Source of the DNA: Peristeroidobacter agariperforans
GTDB lineage: Bacteria > Pseudomonadota > Gammaproteobacteria > Steroidobacterales > Steroidobacteraceae
Direction: 5' to 3'
Length of the DNA: 64,000 bases
Assembly: GCF_004138335.1 (NCBI RefSeq)
Contig: NZ_RYFW01000001.1
Span: 1,922,001 to 1,986,000, forward strand
Shown: positions 1 to 35,997 of the stretch, piece after piece
Layout: each line of letters begins with the position of its first letter
How positions within the stretch are numbered: position 1 is the first letter of the stretch
Notes under the pieces: generated by a model
What the model was told of the DNA's origin: nothing
What the model saw: only the letters and a program-made list of their open reading frames with translations
Databases searched by the model: none
Made by a program: the position numbers and the translations under genes

Positions 1-646
1 TTTTCGCGACCGCATCCACCGGCACGTTCTGCCCGAGCACGACGATCACGCCCCGCGGAGCCGGAATGATCTCGCCCTGGAAACCTTGCTCGTCGATACG
101 TTCGCGTGGTTGAGTCGGTGCATCCGTCACAACGAGCGCGGTGACGGGCCCCTGTTCCGTTTGCACGACGAGATGCGGAACGCGTTGGCCACGGAAAGGG
201 CAACTCTGCGCGTACGACACTTTTGCCGCGCCGGCTTTCAAGCGTAGGCGCGATGCTGCGAGTACCGCTTCCAGTTCCTTGTCGTCGACGGTTTCCGAAG
301 TGCGCACGAGCGAGAATTGTTCATGCTTTACATGAGCGATTGCCTCAGCTGCGAAGCTCTCTCTCGGTGTCAGCAGCCACAAAGACATGGCGCCGATGAG
401 CACGGTAATGAGCATGCTCGCAGCCATGCGCCACGTGCGAGCCGGACTTTGCTTCCGCTTCGGTTCCGAGGCGATCGTCTCGGTCGGCGCATCGACCGCC
501 AGCGCGCGATAAATCAGCCGATCCATCGCCTGCAGTTCCTGGCGATAGCGCGCGCACTCGGCGCAGCTTTCGATGTGAGCAATGACGTCAGGGTTCGTCG
601 AGTTGGGCTCGGCGCCAACGAGCGTGCGCAGTTCTTCGCAGTTCAT
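1..646 (-). CDS. DUF3379-type membrane anti-sigma factor (3' end beyond window)
   Basis: Read by hand on the minus strand: an open frame from the ATG at 646 runs without a stop to base 1, so the C-terminus lies outside the window. The N-terminus has a zinc anti-sigma motif, His24-x3-Cys28-x2-Cys31, followed by a likely membrane helix at about residues 73-93. The remainder would be periplasmic. This layout fits DUF3379-type anti-sigma factors, which hold an ECF sigma factor at the inner membrane until a signal releases it. The ATG overlaps the stop of the upstream sigma gene (ATGA), so the pair is probably translationally coupled. The signal sensed cannot be told from the sequence. Confidence 0.8.
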   Translation of the reverse strand, partial: MNCEELRTLVGAEPNSTNPDVIAHIESCAECARYRQELQAMDRLIYRALAVDAPTETIASEPKRKQSPARTWRMAASMLITVLIGAMSLWLLTPRESFAAEAIAHVKHEQFSLVRTSETVDDKELEAVLAASRLRLKAGAAKVSYAQSCPFRGQRVPHLVVQTEQGPVTALVVTDAPTQPRERIDEQGFQGEIIPAPRGVIVVLGQNVPVDAVAK

Positions 647-1161
647 GGCCGCGAGCCCTCCGCGCCTAGAAGCTGCTGACGCAACACCTGTCGGGCGCGA
701 AACAAACGCGTCAACACGGCAGCGACACTGATGTCGAGGTGTCGAGCGATTTCCTCCGTGGAATAGCCCAGCAGCACCTGTAGCACCAGCGGCTCACGGT
801 GGGTCACGTCCAGTTTCAGAATCGCGCGGCGCATGTCCTCGACTTCATGCTGGTCGTTGACAGCCAGCGACTCGGGCTCGGCTTCGTTGGCGACATCGAG
901 GTCCACGAGCGGCAGCCGCTTGCGCTCGAATACTCTCGCCAGCTCGCGTCGTGCGATGGTCAGCAGCCACGGTCGCGCCGACTTCTCGTCCCCGAGCGAG
1001 TCCAGCGACCGCCACGCTCGCAACAGCGTTTCTTGCACCACGTCCTCCGCCAACGCCCGGTCTCGGCAAAGCCAGTACACGAACCGAAACACGTCGGCCC
1101 GAAACGGCATGCACAGCGCTTCGAAGCGCCCGCGCTCACGAGCACTATCGGCAGCGTTCAT
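643..1161 (-). CDS. ECF RNA polymerase sigma factor
   Basis: A 172-residue sigma-70-family protein of the usual ECF size. Region 2 is at about residues 15-80, with the recognisable stretch DRALAEDVVQETLLRAW and then RPWLLTIARRELA. Region 4, at about 105-165, contains LGYSTEEIARHLDISVAAV, a helix-turn-helix for -35 recognition. There is no extra C-terminal domain. It is followed by the DUF3379-type anti-sigma gene with a four-base ATGA overlap, the standard arrangement of an ECF sigma and its regulator. It lies 43 bases after cobC on the same strand, so read-through from the cobalamin genes is possible. The ribosome site before the ATG is weak. Its regulon cannot be inferred here. Confidence 0.9.
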   Translation of the reverse strand: MNAADSARERGRFEALCMPFRADVFRFVYWLCRDRALAEDVVQETLLRAWRSLDSLGDEKSARPWLLTIARRELARVFERKRLPLVDLDVANEAEPESLAVNDQHEVEDMRRAILKLDVTHREPLVLQVLLGYSTEEIARHLDISVAAVLTRLFRARQVLRQQLLGAEGSRP

Positions 1162-1204: not shown

Positions 1205-1738
1205 TCAGGCTGGCTCGAAGCGTGCGTGCTCGCCCCAGTTCAGCGTCCAGGACCAGCGATCCTCGGCGGGTCGGCCCAGGATCAAACAGCGCAACACCCG
1301 CAACGACCCGCCGTGCGCGACGACTGCGCATCGACCGACCGGCCTCGAGGAAGCTGTGCGATGCCAGGTGGCGACTCGAGTCCATAAGGCCTGTTCTGTT
1401 TCTCCGCCGGGTGGGGCGAGGTTCCAGGTGTCCGCTGCCCATGGGTCGCTATGTTCTCTCGGAATCTGCGCCCACGGCAATTGCTCCCAATCGCCGAAGT
1501 TCAGTTCCTGCAGCTCGGGCGCGAGCACCAAGGGGCTCTGGTCTCTTTGTGCTAACGCGGAGGCAAGGCGCAGGCAGCGCTGCGCCGGACTGGAATAGAC
1601 CAGATCGAACTTCGGCAAGGGCGCCAATGCGATCTGGATGTCGCGCTCCGCAGAATCCGCCAGCGGCACATCGGTTTGGCCATAGCACACGCCTTTCACC
1701 ACCGCAGGCGCGGTGTGGCGAATCAGAAAGATTTCCAC
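1205..1738 (-). CDS. cobC: Alpha-ribazole phosphatase-type histidine phosphatase
   Basis: A 177-residue histidine phosphatase superfamily protein. The phosphate pocket begins with LIRHTAP near the N-terminus, and the second catalytic histidine is in VVAHGGSLRVL near the C-terminus. In cobalamin assembly CobC removes the 5' phosphate from alpha-ribazole phosphate or from cobalamin phosphate. I chose the GTG at 1738 because translation from there starts directly at the RHT motif strand. The longer open frame upstream is a shadow inside cobS. The gene overlaps the end of cobS by 16 bases and is last in cobT-cobS-cobC. The family alone would allow phosphoglycerate-mutase-like activity; the neighbours make CobC likely. 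Confidence 0.83.
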   Translation of the reverse strand: MEIFLIRHTAPAVVKGVCYGQTDVPLADSAERDIQIALAPLPKFDLVYSSPAQRCLRLASALAQRDQSPLVLAPELQELNFGDWEQLPWAQIPREHSDPWAADTWNLAPPGGETEQALWTRVATWHRTASSRPVGRCAVVAHGGSLRVLRCLILGRPAEDRWSWTLNWGEHARFEPA

Positions 1739-2517
1739 GACGCGAGCACGCCCAGATAAAACGCAATCTCGGTGAGCTGCTGCGTGGCGCCCAGTGTGTC
1801 GCCGGTGAAGCCGCCGAGTCGGTGCATGAACCAGCGAGCGAGCACGTACAACACGACCACCGAGCAAACAAATCCCGCGATCGCGTGTGTGCCGCAGCAG
1901 TACAGCGGTGCGATGCCGACTACGAGCGCAAAGATCAGTTCGCCCCGGCCCATGGTCTGCGCAACAGCTCGTGCCCGCGATAGCTCGGGATTGCTGACGA
2001 GATTGCCGGCAAAGATCAGCGTTACTGCGCACGCGCGCGAGAACGCATGCCCCGCGATCAATACGACGATCGCGAACGTTACGGGCAATTCGCTCAACGC
2101 GGCGATCTTGACCAGTAACGTCAGCACCAGCGCAGCCGTGCCGAATGTGCCGAGGCGCGAATCCTTCATGATTTCCAGTGCGCGCTCGCGTGTCGCGCCG
2201 CCGCCCAATCCGTCGAACGTGTCTGCGAGACCGTCCTCGTGAAATGCGCCCGTCATGAACACGGTAAACGCCGTGCTCAAGATGACCGGCAACGGGCCTG
2301 GGAGAACCACACTGGTCGCCCACAACACTAGCGCGCCGATAGCTCCAATCAGCGCGCCGACCGCCGGAAAGTAACGGGGCGTGCTACCCAAGTTCTCTGC
2401 CGAGTGACCAACCCAGGCTGGCATGGGCACGCGCGTGAAATACTGAATCGCCATCAGCAGCAGGCGCAGCTCGGCGAGCAGACGCGAAGGGCGAGCGGTG
2501 CGAGCTTCGCTACTCAT
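1723..2517 (-). CDS. cobS: Adenosylcobinamide-GDP ribazoletransferase (cobalamin synthase)
   Basis: A 264-residue integral membrane enzyme that joins adenosylcobinamide-GDP with alpha-ribazole (phosphate) to give cobalamin (phosphate). Visible signatures are the early YFTRVPMPAW segment and the acidic motif GAFHEDGLADTFDGLGGG, thought to bind magnesium and substrate, followed by several hydrophobic helices. The length is normal for CobS. The start is the ATG at 2517, which overlaps the cobT stop as ATGA. A longer reading to 2598 would run into cobT and adds a basic, non-family N-terminus. It sits in the middle of a three-gene overlapping operon for the nucleotide-loop steps of B12 assembly. 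Confidence 0.93.
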   Translation of the reverse strand: MSSEARTARPSRLLAELRLLLMAIQYFTRVPMPAWVGHSAENLGSTPRYFPAVGALIGAIGALVLWATSVVLPGPLPVILSTAFTVFMTGAFHEDGLADTFDGLGGGATRERALEIMKDSRLGTFGTAALVLTLLVKIAALSELPVTFAIVVLIAGHAFSRACAVTLIFAGNLVSNPELSRARAVAQTMGRGELIFALVVGIAPLYCCGTHAIAGFVCSVVVLYVLARWFMHRLGGFTGDTLGATQQLTEIAFYLGVLASWKSF

Positions 2518-3524
2518 GAAGCCTTGTCGTCCACTCCTGCGGATTCGAAGCTCGCCATCTCGGTCATCAAACGAGCTGCGGCGTCGATGATGGGCCACGC
2601 CATCGCTGCGCCGGTGCCTTCACCGAGTCGCATGCCCAGGTCGAGCAATGGCTTCACGTCGAGATGAGCCAACAAGTTGCGGTGGGCGTGTTCCGCCGAG
2701 CAATGACTGAAAATGCAGCGGGCGCGCACTCGGGGATCGATCTCGATGGCGAGCAGTGCGGCGACTGTGACAGCGAAGCCGTCGATCACGGCAACGCATT
2801 TGGCCTCGGCGGTTGCGAGCAAGGCGCCAGTGATCATCGCCAGCTCGAAGCCGCCGTACTCGGCAATTGTTTCGACGGGGGAGAGCTTCTCGGGACGACG
2901 CGCTGATGCGGCGGCCAGGCGTTCGCGCTTGCGAGCCAGTCCGACATCGTCGAGCCCGGTGCCGCGACCGACGCAGTCTTCCAAGGACCAACCTGTCCTT
3001 CGGTGCAGCAGCATCGATGCGCAGGCGGTGTTGCCGATGCCCATCTCACCAAACAGCAGCGCGTTCGAGCCTGCGCTCAAAGCCTGTTGCGCCAGCGCGC
3101 GGCCGGTGTCGAGAGCCTGCGTACATTGGGCTTGTGTCATCGCCGGCTCGACTCGAAAGTTGCGCGTGCTTCGGGCAACGGCACGAGCAACCAGTGACGG
3201 GTGCTGGCCAATGTCGCTGGCGACGCCGGCGTCGACGACGCGCAACGAGATGCCGTGCTGACGCGCCAGCACATTGATGGCTGCGCCGCCCTGCAGATAA
3301 TTGAGCAACATCTGTGAGGTCACCGACTGTGGGTATGCGCTGACACCGTCGGTGGCGATGCCATGGTCGCCAGCAAATACAAACATTTGCGGCGCACGGA
3401 ACAGCGGCGTTTCGGTGTCGAGCGCCAGGCCAATGCGAACCGCCAGCGTTTCCAGTGCGCCCAGCGAGCCTTGTGGCTTGGTGCGCGTATCGAGTCGGCG
3501 TTGCAAGGTGGCGTTGGTTATCAT
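2514..3524 (-). CDS. cobT: Nicotinate-nucleotide--dimethylbenzimidazole phosphoribosyltransferase
   Basis: A 336-residue CobT that activates the lower ligand base by transferring phosphoribose from nicotinate mononucleotide, giving alpha-ribazole phosphate. Signatures are the N-terminal DTRTKPQGSLGALE, the central GEMGIGNTACA and the C-terminal LGMRLGEGTGAAMA, which carries the glutamate known as the catalytic base in the family. I chose the ATG at 3524 because family members start just before the RTKPxGSLG block. The frame extends 35 codons further, but these residues are unlike the family and would overlap cobU on the other strand. First gene of cobT-cobS-cobC. Confidence 0.93.
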   Translation of the reverse strand: MITNATLQRRLDTRTKPQGSLGALETLAVRIGLALDTETPLFRAPQMFVFAGDHGIATDGVSAYPQSVTSQMLLNYLQGGAAINVLARQHGISLRVVDAGVASDIGQHPSLVARAVARSTRNFRVEPAMTQAQCTQALDTGRALAQQALSAGSNALLFGEMGIGNTACASMLLHRRTGWSLEDCVGRGTGLDDVGLARKRERLAAASARRPEKLSPVETIAEYGGFELAMITGALLATAEAKCVAVIDGFAVTVAALLAIEIDPRVRARCIFSHCSAEHAHRNLLAHLDVKPLLDLGMRLGEGTGAAMAWPIIDAAARLMTEMASFESAGVDDKAS

Positions 3525-3552
3525 GGCGGCATCTAATCGATGAGTGCAGGCA

Positions 3553-4161
3553 ATGGTAGAGGATGACGTGTCAGATGAGCGAGCTTCGGTCGGGCGGCGC
3601 CTGATCATCGGCGGAGCACGCTCGGGCAAGACCGCTCATGCCCTGGCGCTGGCGAAATCGCTGGCGGACGCGCGGGGCGTGAATGTCACCTACGTTGCCA
3701 CGGCGCAAGCACTCGATCAGGAGATGCAGCATCGCATCTCGTTACATCGGGCCGAGCGGCCGGCAACGTGGCGCACCTTAGAAGCACCGGCCGGTCTTGC
3801 GCAAGCGCTGCGAGGGCAGGATGCATCGTCGATCCTGGTGATCGACTGCATGACGCTGTGGTTATCCAACGCTTTGTTAAAGGATTTTCGCGAGGATGCG
3901 CCGACCGCGGAACTGGCGGCCTGGGAGTCGGAGCGCACTGAATTCCTGCAATGGCTGCAAGCAGTTCGCCGCGACGTACTGTTGATTTCAAACGAAGTCG
4001 GCGCGGGCATCGTGCCTTTGTCGCCGGTCGCGCGGCGCTTCCAGGATGAGCAGGGCCGATTGAATCAGGCGTTGGCCGCAACGTGCGACGAGGTGACGCT
4101 GGTCGTTGCCGGAATTGCCGTGCCCATCAAGACCTTCCGTGGCAGTCGATTGACGACGTAA
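3553..4161 (+). CDS. cobU: Adenosylcobinamide kinase/guanylyltransferase
   Basis: A CobU/CobP-type bifunctional enzyme of about 202 residues that phosphorylates adenosylcobinamide and then adds GMP, feeding CobS. The P-loop is GGARSGKT near the N-terminus. Further conserved pieces are VTYVATAQ, the strand VIDCMTLWLSN and ISNEVGAGIVPLSP. I prefer the ATG at 3553, which has GCAGG just upstream, over the in-frame GTG at 3544, which has none. Only 28 bases separate it from the divergent cobT start. Its stop is about ten bases before the cobalamin riboswitch, so a cobU transcript may run into the riboswitch leader. Confidence 0.92.
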   Translation: MVEDDVSDERASVGRRLIIGGARSGKTAHALALAKSLADARGVNVTYVATAQALDQEMQHRISLHRAERPATWRTLEAPAGLAQALRGQDASSILVIDCMTLWLSNALLKDFREDAPTAELAAWESERTEFLQWLQAVRRDVLLISNEVGAGIVPLSPVARRFQDEQGRLNQALAATCDEVTLVVAGIAVPIKTFRGSRLTT

Positions 4162-4170
4162 CAATTTTCG

Positions 4171-4345
4171 CGCAAGGTGTCGCGCGAACGACAAGTCATG
4201 GGAACCGGGTGCAATGCCCGGGCTGCCCCCGCAACTGTAAGCGGTGCCGCCATCTGAGCTCCCTGTGAGAGCTGACCACTGGGTTTCATGCCCGGGAAGG
4301 TGATGCGACGGCCCAAGCCGCGAGCCAGGAGACCAGCTTGCCGCG
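4171..4345 (+). promoter_or_regulatory. Cobalamin (B12) riboswitch
   Basis: Matches the adenosylcobalamin riboswitch core in order: an AGGTG-like start, GGGAACCGGGTGCAAT, the nearly invariant block GGCTGCCCCCGCAACTGTAA at 4221-4240 followed by GCGG, then CCACTGGG, CCCGGGAAGG and the closing GAGCCAGGAGACC at 4322-4334. The leader between it and the downstream start (4346-4467) has no T-run terminator. A small imperfect hairpin lies at about 4411-4432. Control of translation initiation of the CobN-like gene is therefore more likely than transcription termination. In the known class, bound cobalamin turns expression off. Confidence 0.95.
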
Positions 4346-4467
4346 GTCGTCTTCGTGCAGCCGGGGTGTGCTGAACGAGCGGGATTTCCTGCAGCGGCGA
4401 CAGGTTCACGGAGCGACGCCTGAAGGCGTTCGCACCGTGCAGTGTGTCAGCTTCTGCAGGTCCCGTT

Positions 4468-7400
4468 GTGCGATCTCAGTCCCGCTTCCTCGTCCGCTGG
4501 TTACGCGGACTGATTCTCCTGATCCTTTCCTGTTTCGCCGCTGAGATATCTGCGGCCACGCTGGTTGCTGTCGTTTCCGAGCGCAACTCGGGCGATCTCG
4601 CTCAAGCGGCGCGTGATTTCAGCCAGCGCCTGCCCAACCATCGACTGATCTTTCGCACGACCCCCCAGGTCGATGCGCTCAGCGATGCTCAGTTGCAAGA
4701 GCTGATTGGCGGCGCCGACGCGTTGCTGCTCGCGACGGTGTTCAAAGAAACTGCTCAGCGCGTTCAGGCGCTGCTGCCAGCTGCTCGCGCTCGCGAGATC
4801 ATTGCGGTCGCCGGCGATCCGGCGCTCGGGCGGCAGAGTCGGTGGCGCAGCAAACGTTTGTTCGTCGATGAAGATCCGCGCTATGCGGAGTTGTCGTCGT
4901 TGACGGCAGAGAGGGATGCAAGCGCGGATGCTGTCGCTGCAGCCGTTCGTCGCCATCCGCAGCTAATGCCTTGGATTCAAGCGCGCGCGTACTGGCAGAA
5001 TCGGGGCGCGTCGAATTTGATCTCGCTGCTGGCGTTGATGCTGTCCGAGCAAGATCTCGCAGCCGCGGCGGTTATCAAACCCGTCGAAGATGCGCTGCCC
5101 ATGCGCTTTCACTATCGCGGCGCATGGTCGACCGCTGAAACATTGCGTATCCCCGGCGATCGACGTGTGATCGCCGTGCTCGAAGATCAGCACGCCGATG
5201 TAACGTTGAGTGAAGCAATCTGTCGCTCGTTGAATGCGCGGGATCTGGATTGCCTCACGGTGCTTGCAGGGTGGGGAAAACCGAGCAGCGATGCGCTAAG
5301 AGTCATTGGCAGTAAGGTCGGCGCCCGCCTGGCTGCGATTGTATCCGTGCAAGATTTCATCGTCGGCGGCAGCAGCGATCGCGCTCGGGCGACGCGACAC
5401 ATCGAGCAGCTCGATGTGCCGGTGCTGAAAGCGCTTCGATTGCACGATGTCACGGTCGATGGCTGGCGCATGTCCGAACAAGGCCTGGCTTGGGACAGTG
5501 TTTATTACCGCGTGGCCATGCCGGAGCTGCAAGGAATCAGTCAGCCAATAGTTGTAGCGGCCGCGGCTGCTCCGCAGCTGGATTCTCTGACCGGCATCGC
5601 AGTGACCCGAGCCGCGGCCATTCCATCGCAACTCGAGCAGCTGACGGCGCGAATCGAGCGCTGGGCCGGGCTGCAGCAGCTGAAGAACGCCGAGAAGCAC
5701 ATCGCAATCGTTTACTACAACCATCCACCGGGTCGTCACAACATCGGCGCAGACAATCTCGATGTGCCGGCCTCGCTGCTGGAAATCCTGAAGGCTTTGC
5801 AGCGCGAAGGTTACGACACCGGACCGCTGCCTGCGTCATCAGCGCAGTTGCTCGAAAAACTGCAGCAGGATGGCGTGAATCTCCCCGAACAAGGCGACGT
5901 GCTGCGCGCGATGGCGGCGCGAGTTGCCAATGTACGCCCGGAACAGTATGCGCAGTGGTTTGCAACTTTGCCGCAACCCTTGCAGAAGGAAATGACCGGC
6001 GGCCCATTGGCGCTGCTACAAGCGAATGTCCAAGCGGCACAAGCGGCTCGCTTGCCGCAGGAAGCACGGGGTCAAGTCAATCGGACGCTGCATGAGGTCG
6101 AGCATCTGCTCGAAGGCGCACAGCATCCGGCGCGAAGCCGTGCTCTCGATCTCGTGAACCAACTGCAAGCTGCGTATGAAATGCAGCTGACCAAGGGCGG
6201 CAACGAAGCTCGCATCGACTCGTTGACTCGCGCGATAGCGGCCACGGGCGTCGAAGGACTGCGGGGGTGGGGCGAGGCGCCAGGTACTGTGATGGTGAAC
6301 AAAGGCAAGCTCGTGCTGCCGGGCGTGCGCTTCGGCAAGATATTTGTGGGGCCGCAGCCGCCGCGTGGGTGGGAGCTGAACGAGGAGTTGTTACACGCCA
6401 ACACCAGCATTCCACCGACGCATCAGTACCTCGCGTTTTATTTCTGGCTGCGTCACGAGTTTCGCGCCGATGCCATCGTGCATCTGGGTCGGCACTCGAC
6501 ATACGAGTTCCTGCCGCGCAAAGGCGTCGGTCAGGATGAGCTGGATTATCCGGCGCTGATCGCCGGTGACATTCCCGGCATCTATCCTTACATCGTCGAC
6601 GGCGTCGGCGAAGGTTTGCAGGCCAAGCGGCGCGGACTGGCCGTGATTGTCGATCACTTGATTCCGCCGCTGACGGCGACGCCGCTCTATGACGACCTGT
6701 TGCGTCTGCGGCAGCTGGTCGAAAGTTACGAGTCGTCGAACAATCCGGCGCTGCGCAAGCAGGCTGCTGAGTCGATGCGCGGTTTGATCGATGAGTTGCA
6801 TCTCAAAGACGCGCTGACCGCCAGCATGGACACGGAGTTGAAAGTGCGCGGTATCTCGTTCGAGCAGGCCGACGATGAACTGCTCGTGCACGAGATCGGT
6901 CACTATCTCACGCACTTGCAGGAAGATTTCATGCCGCTGGGACTGCACGTGTTTGGCAAGCCTTGGCAGAAAGAAGCGCTCGACACGATGCTGGTGTCCA
7001 TGAAGGCGCGCGACGACGACAAAGTGCTGCGGCAGAATCTGCAGAGCTCGCCCGAGAATGAAATGCGCGCGCTGTTGCACGGTCTCGCCGGGCGCTTCAT
7101 TCCTGCCGGACCGGGCAACGATCCCATTCGTAATGCCGAGGCGCTGCCGACGGGACGCAACTTTCACGGTCTCGACAACAGTCTGATTCCGTCGCGGCTG
7201 GGTTATTCACTGGGCGCGAAGCTCGCGAACGAGCGCTCGAAAGTGACAGAGGACGGCAAGGAAGCGGTCATCCTGTGGGCGTCCGATTCGGTCCGGGATG
7301 AAGGCGCGATGGTGGGCTTTGGATTGTCCCTGCTCGGGGTTGCGCCGCGGTGGAATAGTCGTGGGATCGTCGCGGGGCTCGAGCGTCTGCCGTTGAACGA

Positions 7401-8751
7401 CGGCGGTCAGCGCGCCGATACGGTGTTCGTCACATCGGGGTTGTTCCGCGATTTGTTCGGTCAGCAGATCGTTTGGCTGGATAAGGCTGTGTTGCTTGCG
7501 TTGGATGGCAGCCGACGCACCATCGAGCGCAGTCGTCCCGATCTCGCATCGGCACTGCGCGCCGCGCTGGAGCCGTTGGGGCCGATGGCGAGTCCCAGCA
7601 ACGAGCCGCTGGCGCGCAACCATGTCGCGCGCCATTGGGTGAACGAAGCATCGGCGCTCATCAAGCAAGGCGTCGGGCATGTGCAAGCGGGCAAGCAGGC
7701 GAGTTTGCGTGTGTTCGGCACATCGCCCGGCGATTACAGCGCCGGCATCAATCGCGCAGTCGAGCGCTCCGGCAGCTGGAACGATCGCAAGGAGCTGGCG
7801 AAGATCTATATCGATCGCCTTGGGCACGCGTACTCGGCCGACGGCACCAGTCAGGCGCATCAGGAACTGCTGAAGAGCAACCTGCGCGAGGTGCGCAACA
7901 CCTACCTGGGTCGGTCCAGCAATCTCTACGGCCTGATGGATAACAACGATGCGTTCGACTATCTCGGCGGCTTGAGCCTCGCGGTGGAAACACTGAGCGG
8001 TCGTGTGCCGGCCAGTCATGTGGCGGATCATTCCAACCCATCGCAGCCGACGATGCAGCCGCTGCCAGCAGCGCTGCTCTCGGAACTGCGCGGCCGTTAT
8101 CTGAATCCCGCATGGATCAAGCCGTTGATGCAGCATGGTTACGCCGGTGCGCGAACCATGGGCAGCGAGTTCACGGAGTACTTGTGGGGCTGGCAAGTCA
8201 CGAACCCGGATGTGATCAAGAGCTGGGCGTGGGATGAGGTCAAGCAGGTGTATGTCGACGACTCACATGACCTCGGGCTGGACGAGTTCCTCGAGCAAGG
8301 CTCCAACGTGCACGTGAAGACCAACATGATGGCGATCCTGCTGGTCGCCGCCGAGAAGCAGTTCTGGCAGACCGACGAGGCTACGTTGCAACAGCTCAGC
8401 CAGAAGTGGGTGGATCTGTTACTCGAACACGGCCTGCCGGGCAGCGGCCACACACAGCCGGATCATTCGGTGTTCCAGTGGGTGCAGCCATATCTGCGCG
8501 CCGATCAGATCGAACCGCTCAAACAACTGCTCGACCGTGCGCGCGTCGATGGGAAGGCTGCTTCGTCGCCAACGACGATGACGGAGCTGCAGACGGCAAC
8601 TGAAGATCAGGCGAAGCGGCGTTCTGACGCTGAGGGTGCGAGCGGTCGGTCGCCCTGGGCGTTGCTGGTCATCGTGCTCGCGATCGCGATATTGCTGTCC
8701 GCTGGATATCTCCGCGGACGTTACATTGCTCCCAAGGAGCGTTCCGCATGA
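4468..8751 (+). CDS. CobN-like protein, exported and membrane-anchored
   Basis: About 1427 residues related to the large magnesium/cobalt chelatase subunit CobN (BchH/CobN family). CobN-family blocks are visible, such as NHPPGRHNIGADNLDVPASL, HLGRHSTYEFLPRKGVG and YPYIVDGVGEGLQAKRRG. Unlike cytoplasmic CobN, it begins with a basic stretch and a hydrophobic segment resembling a Sec signal (LRGLILLILSCFAAEISA). It ends with a single membrane helix (WALLVIVLAIAILLSAGY) and a basic tail, so the body is probably periplasmic. The start is uncertain: GTG 4468 has GCAGGT upstream, and GTG 4444 is the alternative. It lies behind a B12 riboswitch and overlaps the ExbB-like gene as ATGA. CobN-like genes in the same company occur in haem operons such as hmuSTUV of Bacteroidetes. 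No cytoplasmic chelatase partner (CobS/CobT ATPase type) is present. Corrinoid or cobalt handling is inferred from the riboswitch. Confidence 0.85.
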   Translation: MRSQSRFLVRWLRGLILLILSCFAAEISAATLVAVVSERNSGDLAQAARDFSQRLPNHRLIFRTTPQVDALSDAQLQELIGGADALLLATVFKETAQRVQALLPAARAREIIAVAGDPALGRQSRWRSKRLFVDEDPRYAELSSLTAERDASADAVAAAVRRHPQLMPWIQARAYWQNRGASNLISLLALMLSEQDLAAAAVIKPVEDALPMRFHYRGAWSTAETLRIPGDRRVIAVLEDQHADVTLSEAICRSLNARDLDCLTVLAGWGKPSSDALRVIGSKVGARLAAIVSVQDFIVGGSSDRARATRHIEQLDVPVLKALRLHDVTVDGWRMSEQGLAWDSVYYRVAMPELQGISQPIVVAAAAAPQLDSLTGIAVTRAAAIPSQLEQLTARIERWAGLQQLKNAEKHIAIVYYNHPPGRHNIGADNLDVPASLLEILKALQREGYDTGPLPASSAQLLEKLQQDGVNLPEQGDVLRAMAARVANVRPEQYAQWFATLPQPLQKEMTGGPLALLQANVQAAQAARLPQEARGQVNRTLHEVEHLLEGAQHPARSRALDLVNQLQAAYEMQLTKGGNEARIDSLTRAIAATGVEGLRGWGEAPGTVMVNKGKLVLPGVRFGKIFVGPQPPRGWELNEELLHANTSIPPTHQYLAFYFWLRHEFRADAIVHLGRHSTYEFLPRKGVGQDELDYPALIAGDIPGIYPYIVDGVGEGLQAKRRGLAVIVDHLIPPLTATPLYDDLLRLRQLVESYESSNNPALRKQAAESMRGLIDELHLKDALTASMDTELKVRGISFEQADDELLVHEIGHYLTHLQEDFMPLGLHVFGKPWQKEALDTMLVSMKARDDDKVLRQNLQSSPENEMRALLHGLAGRFIPAGPGNDPIRNAEALPTGRNFHGLDNSLIPSRLGYSLGAKLANERSKVTEDGKEAVILWASDSVRDEGAMVGFGLSLLGVAPRWNSRGIVAGLERLPLNDGGQRADTVFVTSGLFRDLFGQQIVWLDKAVLLALDGSRRTIERSRPDLASALRAALEPLGPMASPSNEPLARNHVARHWVNEASALIKQGVGHVQAGKQASLRVFGTSPGDYSAGINRAVERSGSWNDRKELAKIYIDRLGHAYSADGTSQAHQELLKSNLREVRNTYLGRSSNLYGLMDNNDAFDYLGGLSLAVETLSGRVPASHVADHSNPSQPTMQPLPAALLSELRGRYLNPAWIKPLMQHGYAGARTMGSEFTEYLWGWQVTNPDVIKSWAWDEVKQVYVDDSHDLGLDEFLEQGSNVHVKTNMMAILLVAAEKQFWQTDEATLQQLSQKWVDLLLEHGLPGSGHTQPDHSVFQWVQPYLRADQIEPLKQLLDRARVDGKAASSPTTMTELQTATEDQAKRRSDAEGASGRSPWALLVIVLAIAILLSAGYLRGRYIAPKERSA

Positions 8752-9185
8752 ACTCACTCATCGTGCAATGGACACACGCGCTGGTGCCGCTGCTCCTGAC
8801 GCCTGTGGTCATCGGATTGTTTGTTTGCGTCGCGCTTGCTTGTGTCGATGTGGGCGTGCTCTTCGGTGAGCGGGGGTTCTTGCGCCGGCGTGAACGGCCA
8901 GCGGATGTCGGCGCGGTGGAACGCCGGGCACATCGACGCATCGAGCGCGCGGACATTCTCACTCGCACGTCGCCCATGCTCGGCTTGATGGCCACATTGA
9001 TTTCGCTCGGGCCTGGGCTCAAGGCGCTCAGCAATGGCAGTCTGAACCTGCTAGCCGAAGCGATGCTGACGGCCTTCGACGCCACCGTGCTTGGACTGGC
9101 TGCCGGTGTCGTGGGTTTTATCATCGGTCGGTTGCGACGACGCTGGTACGACGAGGCTTTGCTGCGTTGGGAGCAGCAGTCGTGA
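8748..9185 (+). CDS. ExbB/TolQ/MotA-like proton channel protein
   Basis: A short (145-residue) MotA/TolQ/ExbB-family inner membrane protein. Three helices are predicted, at about residues 12-36, 75-92 and 107-128, with a basic cytoplasmic loop at about 44-70. The family core is seen in TRTSPMLGLMATLISLGPGL, matching the ExbB pattern around the pore helices. These proteins conduct protons to drive a partner. The ATG overlaps the CobN-like stop (ATGA) and follows AAGGAG. The gene overlaps the DUF2149 gene by four bases. No TonB or TonB-dependent receptor is in the window, so the likely partner is the CobN-like protein. That partnership is inference from gene order. Confidence 0.85.
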   Translation: MNSLIVQWTHALVPLLLTPVVIGLFVCVALACVDVGVLFGERGFLRRRERPADVGAVERRAHRRIERADILTRTSPMLGLMATLISLGPGLKALSNGSLNLLAEAMLTAFDATVLGLAAGVVGFIIGRLRRRWYDEALLRWEQQS

Positions 9186-9490
9186 GGCGGCGCTGGAGCA
9201 GTGTGCGATTCGACGAGACACCCGAGGACCCGCAGGCATCGTTGGTCAATCTCGTCGACATCATGTTGGTGTTCATTTGCGGGTTGATCGTTGCGCTGGT
9301 GTCCGCGCAGCCGGTGCTCAACAGCACTCCCAGCAACGCCAACGGCGGCAAGCAAGTCGTTGAGCCGGGCCGTGAGCTCGCAGAACTGCCGGAGGGGCTG
9401 CGCGGCCAGGCTGCGGGCGCTGGCATGGAGCCGGTGGGGCAGGTGTATCGGGACCCCAAAACCGGCAAGTTGATCCTGGTGGGTCAATGA
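9182..9490 (+). CDS. DUF2149 protein, ExbD-like single-span membrane protein
   Basis: 102 residues starting at the GTG at 9182, which overlaps the upstream stop as GTGA. A basic N-terminus (RRRW) precedes one membrane helix at about residues 25-44 that begins NLVDIMLVFICGLIVAL. An aspartate just before a single helix is the layout of ExbD/TolR, which read FIDVMLVLL there. The rest is a small glycine-rich periplasmic tail ending in VYRDPKTGKLILVGQ. Family membership (DUF2149) and the CobN-like/ExbB-like/DUF2149 order are known from other genomes. The ExbD-like role is my inference from this motif. A longer reading from 9167 is possible but lies inside the preceding gene. Confidence 0.8.
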   Translation: MRRRWSSVRFDETPEDPQASLVNLVDIMLVFICGLIVALVSAQPVLNSTPSNANGGKQVVEPGRELAELPEGLRGQAAGAGMEPVGQVYRDPKTGKLILVGQ

Positions 9491-9535
9491 GCGGCTACAA
9501 TGCCTGGCCATCGCCCAGCCATTGTCCTACCGCCC

Positions 9536-10297
9536 ATGAACTCGCCCTTCCTAGACACCGCTCTCGAAGCCGCCCGCGCCGCGGCTGACGTTATCCGTCG
9601 TTACTACCAGAACAATCTGCAGGTCACGATCAAAGCCGACAAGACGCCGGTGACCGACGCGGACGTGGAGACCGAGAAAGTCATCCGCAGCATCATCAGC
9701 TCGCGCTTTCCTTCGCACGGTTTTTACGGCGAGGAGACCGGGCAGAGCGCGATGGATGCGGAATATCTGTGGCTGGTCGATCCCATCGATGGCACCAAGG
9801 CGTTCGTGCGCGAGTATCCGATGTTCTCCACGCAGATCGCGCTCATGCATCGTGGCCAGCTCATCGTCGGCGTGTCATCGGCGCCGGTGTATGGAGAGCT
9901 GGCCTGGGCAGAGATCGGCAAGGGCGCGTGGTTGAACGACAAGCCGATCAAGGTGAGCGAGATCGATTCGGTCGAGGCGGGCGCGATCTCCGGCGGTAAT
10001 TTGAAAACATTGGCGAACGGCCCGCGTTGGGATCGTTACGGCAAGCTGGTCGTGCGCGCTCATCGCATCCGCGGCTATGGCGATTTCCTTCACTATCACT
10101 TGCTGGCGGCTGGCAAGATCGACGTTGTCATCGAGTCGGATGTGAACATCCTGGACGTTGCCGCGTGCTCGGTGATCGTCGCGGCCGCGGGTGGCAAGTT
10201 CACCGATCTCGATGGCAAGGCGCTGACGCTGGAGACGACATCGGTGCTCGCGGCGAACGGCAAGTTACATTCGACAGTGCTGAGCGCGCTGGCCTGA
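9536..10297 (+). CDS. Inositol-monophosphatase-family phosphatase (possibly histidinol-phosphatase)
   Basis: 253 residues of the lithium-sensitive, magnesium-dependent phosphatase family. Metal-binding motifs are visible: GEET, then WLVDPIDGTKAF, and the C-terminal NILDVAACSVIVAAAGG carrying the third aspartate. Members hydrolyse inositol phosphate, 3'-phosphoadenosine phosphate (CysQ) or histidinol phosphate (HisN). The sequence around YGDFLHYHLLAAGKIDVVI looks closer to the HisN/ImpA branch than to CysQ, but I would not assign the substrate. I chose the ATG at 9536 because the preceding 12 codons are outside the family pattern. It lies 45 bases after the DUF2149 gene and may share its transcript. 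Confidence 0.82.
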   Translation: MNSPFLDTALEAARAAADVIRRYYQNNLQVTIKADKTPVTDADVETEKVIRSIISSRFPSHGFYGEETGQSAMDAEYLWLVDPIDGTKAFVREYPMFSTQIALMHRGQLIVGVSSAPVYGELAWAEIGKGAWLNDKPIKVSEIDSVEAGAISGGNLKTLANGPRWDRYGKLVVRAHRIRGYGDFLHYHLLAAGKIDVVIESDVNILDVAACSVIVAAAGGKFTDLDGKALTLETTSVLAANGKLHSTVLSALA

Positions 10298-35886: not shown

Positions 35887-35897
35887 CCGGCCACTGT

Positions 35898-35997
35898 TAA
35901 GGGCAAACCCGTCGAAAGGCGGGGACGCAAAGCCACCGGTCTACGGCAGCAGGCACGCAGCGAAGCGGGCCGCGCCACGATAGCGGGGTTGCCAGGA
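35898..35997 (+). promoter_or_regulatory. Cyclic-di-GMP-I (GEMM) riboswitch
   Basis: Closely follows the class I aptamer: GGGCAAACC at 35901-35909, a GAAA tetraloop stem (CGTCGAAAGGCG), the nearly invariant GGGACGCAAAGCC at 35922-35934 with CCGG after it, then a variable P2 stem and the closing TAGCGGGGTTGCC at 35981-35993. The 238 bases from the aptamer to the next start hold two further hairpins. Class I aptamers bind cyclic di-GMP, usually controlling motility, surface or envelope genes; here the target is an M23 endopeptidase gene. Confidence 0.93.

Follow-up and report, generated by a model that had tools for sequence, protein, structure and literature searches.

Organization of the locus

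The 64,000-nucleotide stretch of the Peristeroidobacter agariperforans genome analyzed here (contig NZ_RYFW01000001.1, positions 1,922,001 to 1,986,000; hereafter "the window") contains a unit in which a cobalamin (vitamin B12) riboswitch is followed by three tightly packed genes of the same strand, encoding in this order a CobN-like protein, a MotA/ExbB-like protein and a protein of the DUF2149 family (Table 1). Two four-base overlaps join the genes, ATGA at 8748–8751 and GTGA at 9182–9185, and the 5′ edge of the riboswitch falls inside the last codons of a cobU-like gene. Riboswitches of this class allow their operon to be expressed when B12 is scarce. The arrangement had been described in an earlier annotation made from the letters of the window (the original prediction) and is confirmed by the Rfam and Pfam matches and by the two overlaps, export being supported by hydropathy; the extent of the unit stands, apart from the start of the riboswitch, which had been placed at 4171, and the length of 1427 residues given for the CobN-like protein is that obtained from the alternative GTG start instead of the longest frame.

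Table 1. Features of the riboswitch-controlled unit and its upstream neighbours (window coordinates)
Feature	Position	Strand	Evidence and remarks
Cobalamin (B12) riboswitch aptamer	4158..4355	+	RF00174, 99.1 bits (gathering cut-off 31.5)
Apparently exported, C-terminally anchored CobN-like protein, 1435 residues	4444..8751	+	Longest frame; alternative GTG at 4468 gives 1427 residues
GRHS catalytic-His motif, residues 682–685	6487..6498	+	91/91 group A; CobN and ChlH structures; HmuS per paper
HEIGH, clade-specific HExGH motif, residues 816–820	6889..6903	+	91/91 group A; helix 572–590 of the model
D1169, at the place of HmuS His-1209	7948..7950	+	D in 91/91 group A
MotA/TolQ/ExbB-like proton-channel protein, 145 residues	8748..9185	+	PF01618, 36.3 bits (cut-off 22.9)
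DUF2149, short ExbD-like membrane protein	9182..9490	+	PF09919, 44.5 bits (cut-off 27.1); start taken from the GTGA overlap
cobU-like (corrinoid salvage), adjoining the riboswitch upstream, outside the three-gene unit	3544..4161	+	Reading of the ORF (open reading frame) translation
cobS-like	1723..2598	-	Reading of the ORF translation; orthologues in relatives by blastp
cobT-like	2514..3629	-	Reading of the ORF translation; orthologues in relatives by blastp

A riboswitch-linked clade of CobN-like proteins

A survey of 369 genomes of the class detected DUF2149 in 21, which on the basis of their PF02514 (CobN domain) proteins fall into 12 genomes with the type present in the window, hereafter group A, eight with another exported type, hereafter group B, of which two are fragmentary, and a single genome that lacks CobN. 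The group-A frames of this survey measure 1436–1511 residues, save one that is split across contigs. In a tree computed with IQ-TREE in quick mode, which replaced an earlier FastTree run where support for group A was unclear and which contains one HmuS-like row (L189) and not HmuS itself, group A forms a clade of its own, sister to the exported group B and apart from CobN and BchH.

A same-strand riboswitch is located upstream of the operon in 11 of the 12 group-A genomes of the class, 10 of them at the Rfam cut-off; the riboswitch of G256 scores below it and G143 has none. The number expected by chance for a same-strand riboswitch at most 6 kb upstream in 12 genomes is 0.03. By contrast, no cobalamin riboswitch was detected with Rfam in any of the eight group-B regions. 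A scan of named genomes with two peptide patterns yielded 279 relatives, 80 of which were kept, and in 68 of these 80 loci a same-strand riboswitch lies upstream. An nhmmer profile (E ≤ 0.001, at most 6 kb upstream), used instead of two regular expressions that were dropped after producing 85 and 11 hits, respectively, in shuffled sequence, accounts for 63 of them; Rfam, applied to 22 loci besides the group-B regions, added five (L156, L160, L136, L154 and L101) and was passed by all five of the profile-positive loci that were rechecked. As to the remaining 12 loci, in seven the upstream DNA extends for less than 2 kb, in L133 the riboswitch is ~8 kb away, L132 and L139 have divergent riboswitches only, and L143 and L159 have none. 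The ExbB-like and DUF2149 genes are present in 79 of the 80 loci, whose hosts, going by the titles of the records, belong for the most part to the Gamma- and Betaproteobacteria but include Nitrospirota/Nitrospinota, Myxococcota and Arcobacter-like bacteria.

The genes found near the 80 named loci belong to B12 uptake and to the late part of the pathway: a BtuB-type receptor in 34 cases, CobO in 22, CobB in 18, CbiB in 17 and CobD in 15, and a BtuM-like family in 11, one tested member of which matches PDB entry 8c7p (E 3.8e-42). Since the riboswitch linkage is general in group A and absent from group B, the neighbours are those of B12 metabolism and the clade is a separate one, the case for linking group A to corrinoids rather than haem is strong, and the corresponding claim of the original prediction, which drew on the riboswitch before this copy, is supported. 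Haem was accordingly rejected as the substrate of the window copy; the riboswitch and the neighbours speak against it, D1169 only weakly so, because 11 of 15 group-B rows share the aspartate and the six BchH rows vary at this position.

The BtuM-like family (e.g., L147, 6471–7040) occurs twice in three Methylobacillus loci, and its tested member has no Pfam match. A second family, of PepSY_TM membrane proteins, was found near eight of the 80 loci (L144, 7298–8815, and seven others; one member tested) and also in a Zoogloea cob cluster (L181, 2318–3751); it might, speculatively, reduce corrinoids in the periplasm. The group-B regions (L070–L077) themselves combine a CobN-like protein with an ExbB-like protein and a high-scoring DUF2149 and have TonB receptors nearby in seven of eight cases; their substrate is possibly zinc or haem.

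Signatures and fold of the CobN-like protein

The window protein matches PF02514 with 832 bits and displays, by eye, a signal-peptide-like N-terminal and a hydrophobic C-terminal segment. In a hydropathy-window analysis the N-terminus passes in 83 and the C-terminus in 80 of 91 group-A sequences, and the C-terminal segment in none of 22 CobN/BchH rows. The group-A protein is thus predicted, from its sequence, to be exported and membrane-anchored.

The motif containing the catalytic histidine reads GRHS in group A, GKHG in CobN (14 of 14 rows scoring above the TIGR02257 cut-off) and GTHG in both BchH and group B. The HExGH motif, a form seen in zinc hydrolases, was found at the same position in none of 37 relatives outside group A. 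At the D1169 position aspartate also occurs in the alignments with the CobN structures 9uk9 and 7c6o; HmuS and the ChlH chain 6ys9 have histidine there. The invariance of these signatures is in part by construction, since the pattern used to pick the frames of the 80 named loci, all of which had a frame, included H684 and S685; R683 and HExGH lie outside both the locus-finding and the frame-picking patterns. Likewise, the separation of CobN from BchH rows was initially circular, being based on residue 683, and the NCBIfam models later agreed with it, assigning 14/14 K rows to CobN and 6/6 T rows to BchH, with L186 and L187 outside this check.

In a VIA-align comparison of the structural model all standout rows are chelatases, indicating that the CobN-type chelatase fold is kept. 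The model lacks the head domain and is well covered in the ranges 1–496 and 672–1089, the HExGH region lying between the two; no metallohydrolase fold was noticed in the VIA-align list, in which this region is barely covered.

The ExbB-like and DUF2149 partners

PF01618 matches the ExbB-like protein in 16 of 16 group-A members tested. Concerning DUF2149, an aspartate (D31), predicted to be located in the membrane within the sequence NLVDIMLVF, is invariant in 20 sequences, and we take it to resemble the ExbD motif; all 20 match the DUF2149 model, whereas ExbD was not matched at E values up to 1 and no ExbD chain appeared in a comparison with PDB at E up to 10. The corresponding HmuV protein is called ExbD-like in PMC10100974. 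Given the membership of one partner in the ExbB family, the invariant aspartate of the other and this designation of HmuV, the pair is predicted to constitute a proton-coupled motor of the ExbB/ExbD type. The earlier proposal that a proton channel powers a periplasmic CobN-like protein thus gains support from homology and hydropathy, minus the ExbD relationship at the level of sequence.

What the motor would drive is a separate question. HmuU and HmuV have been assigned to the powering of an outer-membrane receptor via TonB (PMC10100974), and a possible effect on the activity of HmuS has also been considered (PMC13227078). In group A the client is probably the CobN-like protein itself, because this protein has its own anchor helix and the three genes form a constant unit.

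Host genomes and the corrin pathway

The genome from which the window is taken (7.65 Mb, assembly 97.9% complete) has as its nearest named relatives Steroidobacter species, the CobN-like protein of S. agaridevorans being 93% identical. Two cobalamin riboswitches were found in it; the second, ~5 kb upstream of the operon and on the opposite strand, faces btuB and corrinoid-salvage genes which, as read from their translations, include an aminotransferase, cobO, btuF, btuC, btuD, cbiB, cobQ and a PduO-type adenosyltransferase. The cobU, cobT and cobS genes lie between the two riboswitch units, and the position of the cobU-like gene is the same in the Steroidobacter relatives L088–L090 and L092. 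Since no more than three methyltransferases of the genome match PF00590 and the CbiC and CobB models have no match in it, the organism appears to make no corrin ring while keeping the late steps.

In the wider set, cobB directly precedes cobN in 13 of the 80 named loci, with a four-base overlap in four Methylobacillus loci, and part of these 13 have the order cobB-cobN-cobO, which is the order of the late-insertion pathway. Three of the 12 group-A genomes of the class (G089, G121 and G236) contain CbiC, and here the three genes head a run with cobO, cobB, cobA, cbiD, an ABC-2 exporter, cobG and cobH, to which bluB is adjacent in G121 and G236. CobG is the mark of the oxygen-dependent route, in which cobalt is inserted late. 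Out of 41 genomes of the class with CbiC, seven have a CobG match beside it, a number that may be an undercount, weaker matches being only partly covered. In G089, G121 and G236 CobG scores 248–324 bits, over the cut-off of 234.8, and the group-A protein is the only PF02514 protein. Fisher tests on CbiC genomes with and without CobG give p = 0.002 when any PF02514 protein is counted and 0.003 when only group A is, in a comparison chosen after the data had been seen and including two genomes (G121 and G236) of the same genus. The same pattern recurs in Zhongshania marina (CobG 276 bits, best PF02514 match in group A), bringing to four the CobG-pathway genomes in which group A is the only CobN found. 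Furthermore, by count of matches group A is the only PF02514 gene in most of 49 named genomes; canonical CobN was found in two (Azotobacter and Peristeroidobacter), and some others have group-B-type or unclear extra copies. Three Zoogloea genomes, which count as exceptions to the pattern, contain both CbiC and group A.

Several CobG matches were discarded. Those found by blast in Pseudomonas-type loci are ~30% identical and sulphite-reductase-like, and matches over the cut-off in G314, G209, G085, G171, G070, G295 (contig C86) and G279 (contig C23) remained uncounted, CbiC not being adjacent to them. The frames of 586–1402 residues in the first five of these, in which CbiC was not found, are probably NirA-like, so that NirA-like proteins scoring above the NCBIfam CobG cut-off are a likely annotation trap.

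A few other features deserve to be recorded. The ABC-2 type exporter is a gene pair between cbiD and cobG (L058, 1789–3758, corresponding to G236; also G089 and G121), found in three genomes of two families; it could, as a speculation, export metal-free corrin. In the window, an inositol-phosphatase-like gene downstream of the operon (9500–10297) was rejected as a member of it, having been seen in only three Steroidobacteraceae loci among those searched. Between the two riboswitch units lie genes which, from their translations, encode an extracytoplasmic function sigma/anti-sigma-like pair and a DoxX-like protein (643–1161, reverse strand, and adjoining), and similar sequences are present in the Steroidobacter locus L089. 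A c-di-GMP-I-GGC riboswitch (RF03167, 67.7 bits; 35893–35997, forward strand) is placed, by the same kind of reading, between lpxC-like and M23-peptidase-like genes and ahead of a secA-like gene, seemingly an unusual site.

Proposed function

The account that we tentatively prefer, as a real possibility, is that group A represents a class I corrinoid chelatase which is induced by B12 starvation, acts outside the cytoplasm in a manner coupled to the proton motive force and most likely inserts cobalt. Low cobalamin would let the operon be expressed, as deduced from the riboswitch class; the CobN-like protein would be exported, with its C-terminal helix fixing it in the inner membrane; a corrin, the presumed substrate, would be held in the CobN-type cleft suggested by the model; and the ExbB-like and DUF2149 proteins would act on the anchor helix as a proton-driven motor, serving this periplasmic enzyme in the way that cytoplasmic chelatases are served by the ATP-driven CobS/CobT or ChlI/ChlD ring. 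The most likely chemistry would be the insertion of cobalt into a metal-free corrin, self-made or scavenged, the HExGH site perhaps, as a speculation, holding the metal in transit, and the product would then enter the CobO-CobQ-CbiB/CobD-CobU/S/T route. Cobalt insertion is favoured because of the cobB-cobN-cobO order and of the CobG genomes. The fullest version of this account, in which the motor replaces the CobST ring, the cobalt ion need not enter the cell, hosts unable to make the ring finish scavenged metal-free corrins, HExGH is the metal donor and the system has taken the place of CobNST in at least three genera of CobG-pathway bacteria, is unlikely to hold in its entirety.

A number of observations weigh against cobalt insertion. 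No CbiC match was found in 42 of 47 further named group-A genomes, whose owners, for this reason, should make no corrin ring, and the scavenging version of the proposal would presuppose the occurrence of free metal-free corrins in nature. In many named loci only the three genes themselves were found among the genes looked for, and, since 46% of precursor salvagers retain cobB (PMC6461909), the presence of this gene alone says little. The four remaining genomes with CobG beside CbiC (G018, G272, G279 and G365; 54–211 bits, under the cut-off) all have canonical CobN; Azotobacter chroococcum possesses CobG and canonical CobN besides group A; one Zoogloea genome has a CbiG-like fragment (134.7 bits, below the cut-off of 326) pointing to the early-insertion route; and the position of group A as sole CobN is based on PF02514, no search for CobS, CobT, ChlI or ChlD having been made. 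Finally, over all the columns that are fixed differently between families, group A agrees with CobN in 26 and with BchH in 21, and with CobN in 12 and with group B in 21; group A is not generally CobN-like, and residues 683 and 1166, which support such a likeness, were picked by hand and do not derive from the general column test.

With hosts that are mostly salvagers, energised capture or transfer, in which the CobN-like protein binds a periplasmic corrinoid and the motor powers its handover to BtuF, to BtuM or to the membrane, the metal staying unchanged, is a serious rival, although on balance we consider it rather unlikely. The nearly constant riboswitch, the frequent BtuB-type and BtuM-like neighbours and the scarcity of CbiC all suit it, but the window genome already has btuF/C/D-like genes beside btuB, the catalytic histidine and the chelatase fold are kept, as they are in HmuS, which is an enzyme, and in the CobG genomes group A is the only CobN found. 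Remodelling or repair of corrinoids other than by cobalt insertion (for example hydrolysis at HExGH, replacement of a wrong metal or periplasmic reduction involving the PepSY_TM protein, the product being rebuilt by CobB/CobQ/CbiB/CobD) would give a role to the invariant HExGH, to the cbiB and cobD genes and to the PepSY_TM family, yet it appears improbable in view of the structure matches, even if the HExGH region is barely covered by them.

The anatomy shared with hmuS-hmuU-hmuV and the sister relationship of the two exported clades would also fit a dechelatase of the HmuS kind, taking cobalt or another metal from corrinoids or porphyrins for nutrition; this is quite improbable, since a riboswitch turning the operon on when B12 runs short would then cause the destruction of a scarce vitamin and the second histidine of HmuS is an aspartate throughout group A. 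Among the roles envisaged by the original prediction (transport, capture or metal removal), metal removal is accordingly the least likely, the operon being expected to switch on when B12 is scarce, and capture or transport persist beside the insertion of cobalt or other metal handling, to which the evidence leans. An ordinary cytoplasmic CobN, suggested by the PF02514 score, is scarcely credible and was rejected: all NCBIfam CobN scores of the window protein are far below cut-off, as opposed to the 14 of 14 tested CobN rows that exceed TIGR02257, signal-like and anchor segments are present, the clade is separate and the marker of corrin ring synthesis was not found in the window genome.

If cobalt insertion by group A is correct, the defining step of B12 synthesis can run outside the cytoplasm, powered by the proton gradient, and a function is assigned to a protein picked out by the CobN domain model in many bacteria without corrin-ring genes. 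Under the rival explanations, too, a widespread riboswitch-marked B12 unit becomes directly testable by gene deletion.

Comparison with known systems

The CobN/BchH domain and the fold are common to group A and the cytoplasmic CobNST enzyme, from which the window protein differs in being apparently exported and anchored, in having ExbB/DUF2149 genes in its operon and in scoring under every NCBIfam CobN cut-off (TIGR02257, 526.6 against 822; the best, PRK05989.2-3, 602.5 against 1619). A third type of CobN, the exported CobN-like proteins named BtuS, was proposed in 2003 by Rodionov to serve metalloporphyrin salvage (cited in PMC6460266) and probably belongs to the same broad class as group A; the likeness is by description only, the name having since been applied to haem-linked proteins of Bacteroides. 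Pseudomonas aeruginosa PA1922–PA1925 likewise comprises a cobN-like gene, with a TonB receptor in the same operon (PMC8531726, PMC13083405), but is described as being under Zur/zinc control; the comparison is by description only.

A Hmu-like operon behind a cobalamin riboswitch was noted in 2023 in Bacteroides fragilis NCTC 9343, and its authors suggest a role in cobalamin metabolism (PMC10100974). It resembles group A in combining the riboswitch with Hmu-like genes and differs from it, again by description only, in being a single named example from Bacteroidota with two HmuR copies. This is the nearest statement retrieved in the literature search, which returned no study recognisable as dealing with the group-A clade. 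Thus, the kind of system is partly known through BtuS, HmuS and one riboswitch-linked Hmu-like operon, and the new elements, as far as this search reaches, are a clade marked by the riboswitch and by signatures of its own, the range of hosts in which it occurs and its standing as the sole CobN found in some CobG-pathway genomes.

The closest characterized relative is HmuS of Bacteroidota, a haem dechelatase (PMC12583661), which like group A is an exported, membrane-anchored protein of CobN fold, keeps the catalytic histidine and is followed by ExbB-like (HmuU) and DUF2149 (HmuV) partners (PMC12583661, PMC13227078, PMC10100974). The two differ in regulation, HmuS being encoded in an iron-responsive hmu operon and group A having the B12 riboswitch and B12 neighbours, and in residues: of the two facing histidines of HmuS, H538 and H1209, group A has the first as H684 and D1169 in place of the second, the HFG(T/A)HG motif of HmuS is replaced by GRHS, and HExGH is its own. 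HmuS is further characterized by a haem site formed by Met-79 and His-254 and by a Met-rich insertion. The pair, one acting on a porphyrin and the other presumably on a corrin, would offer a clean contrast for studying how class I chelatases choose their substrate and the direction of the reaction.

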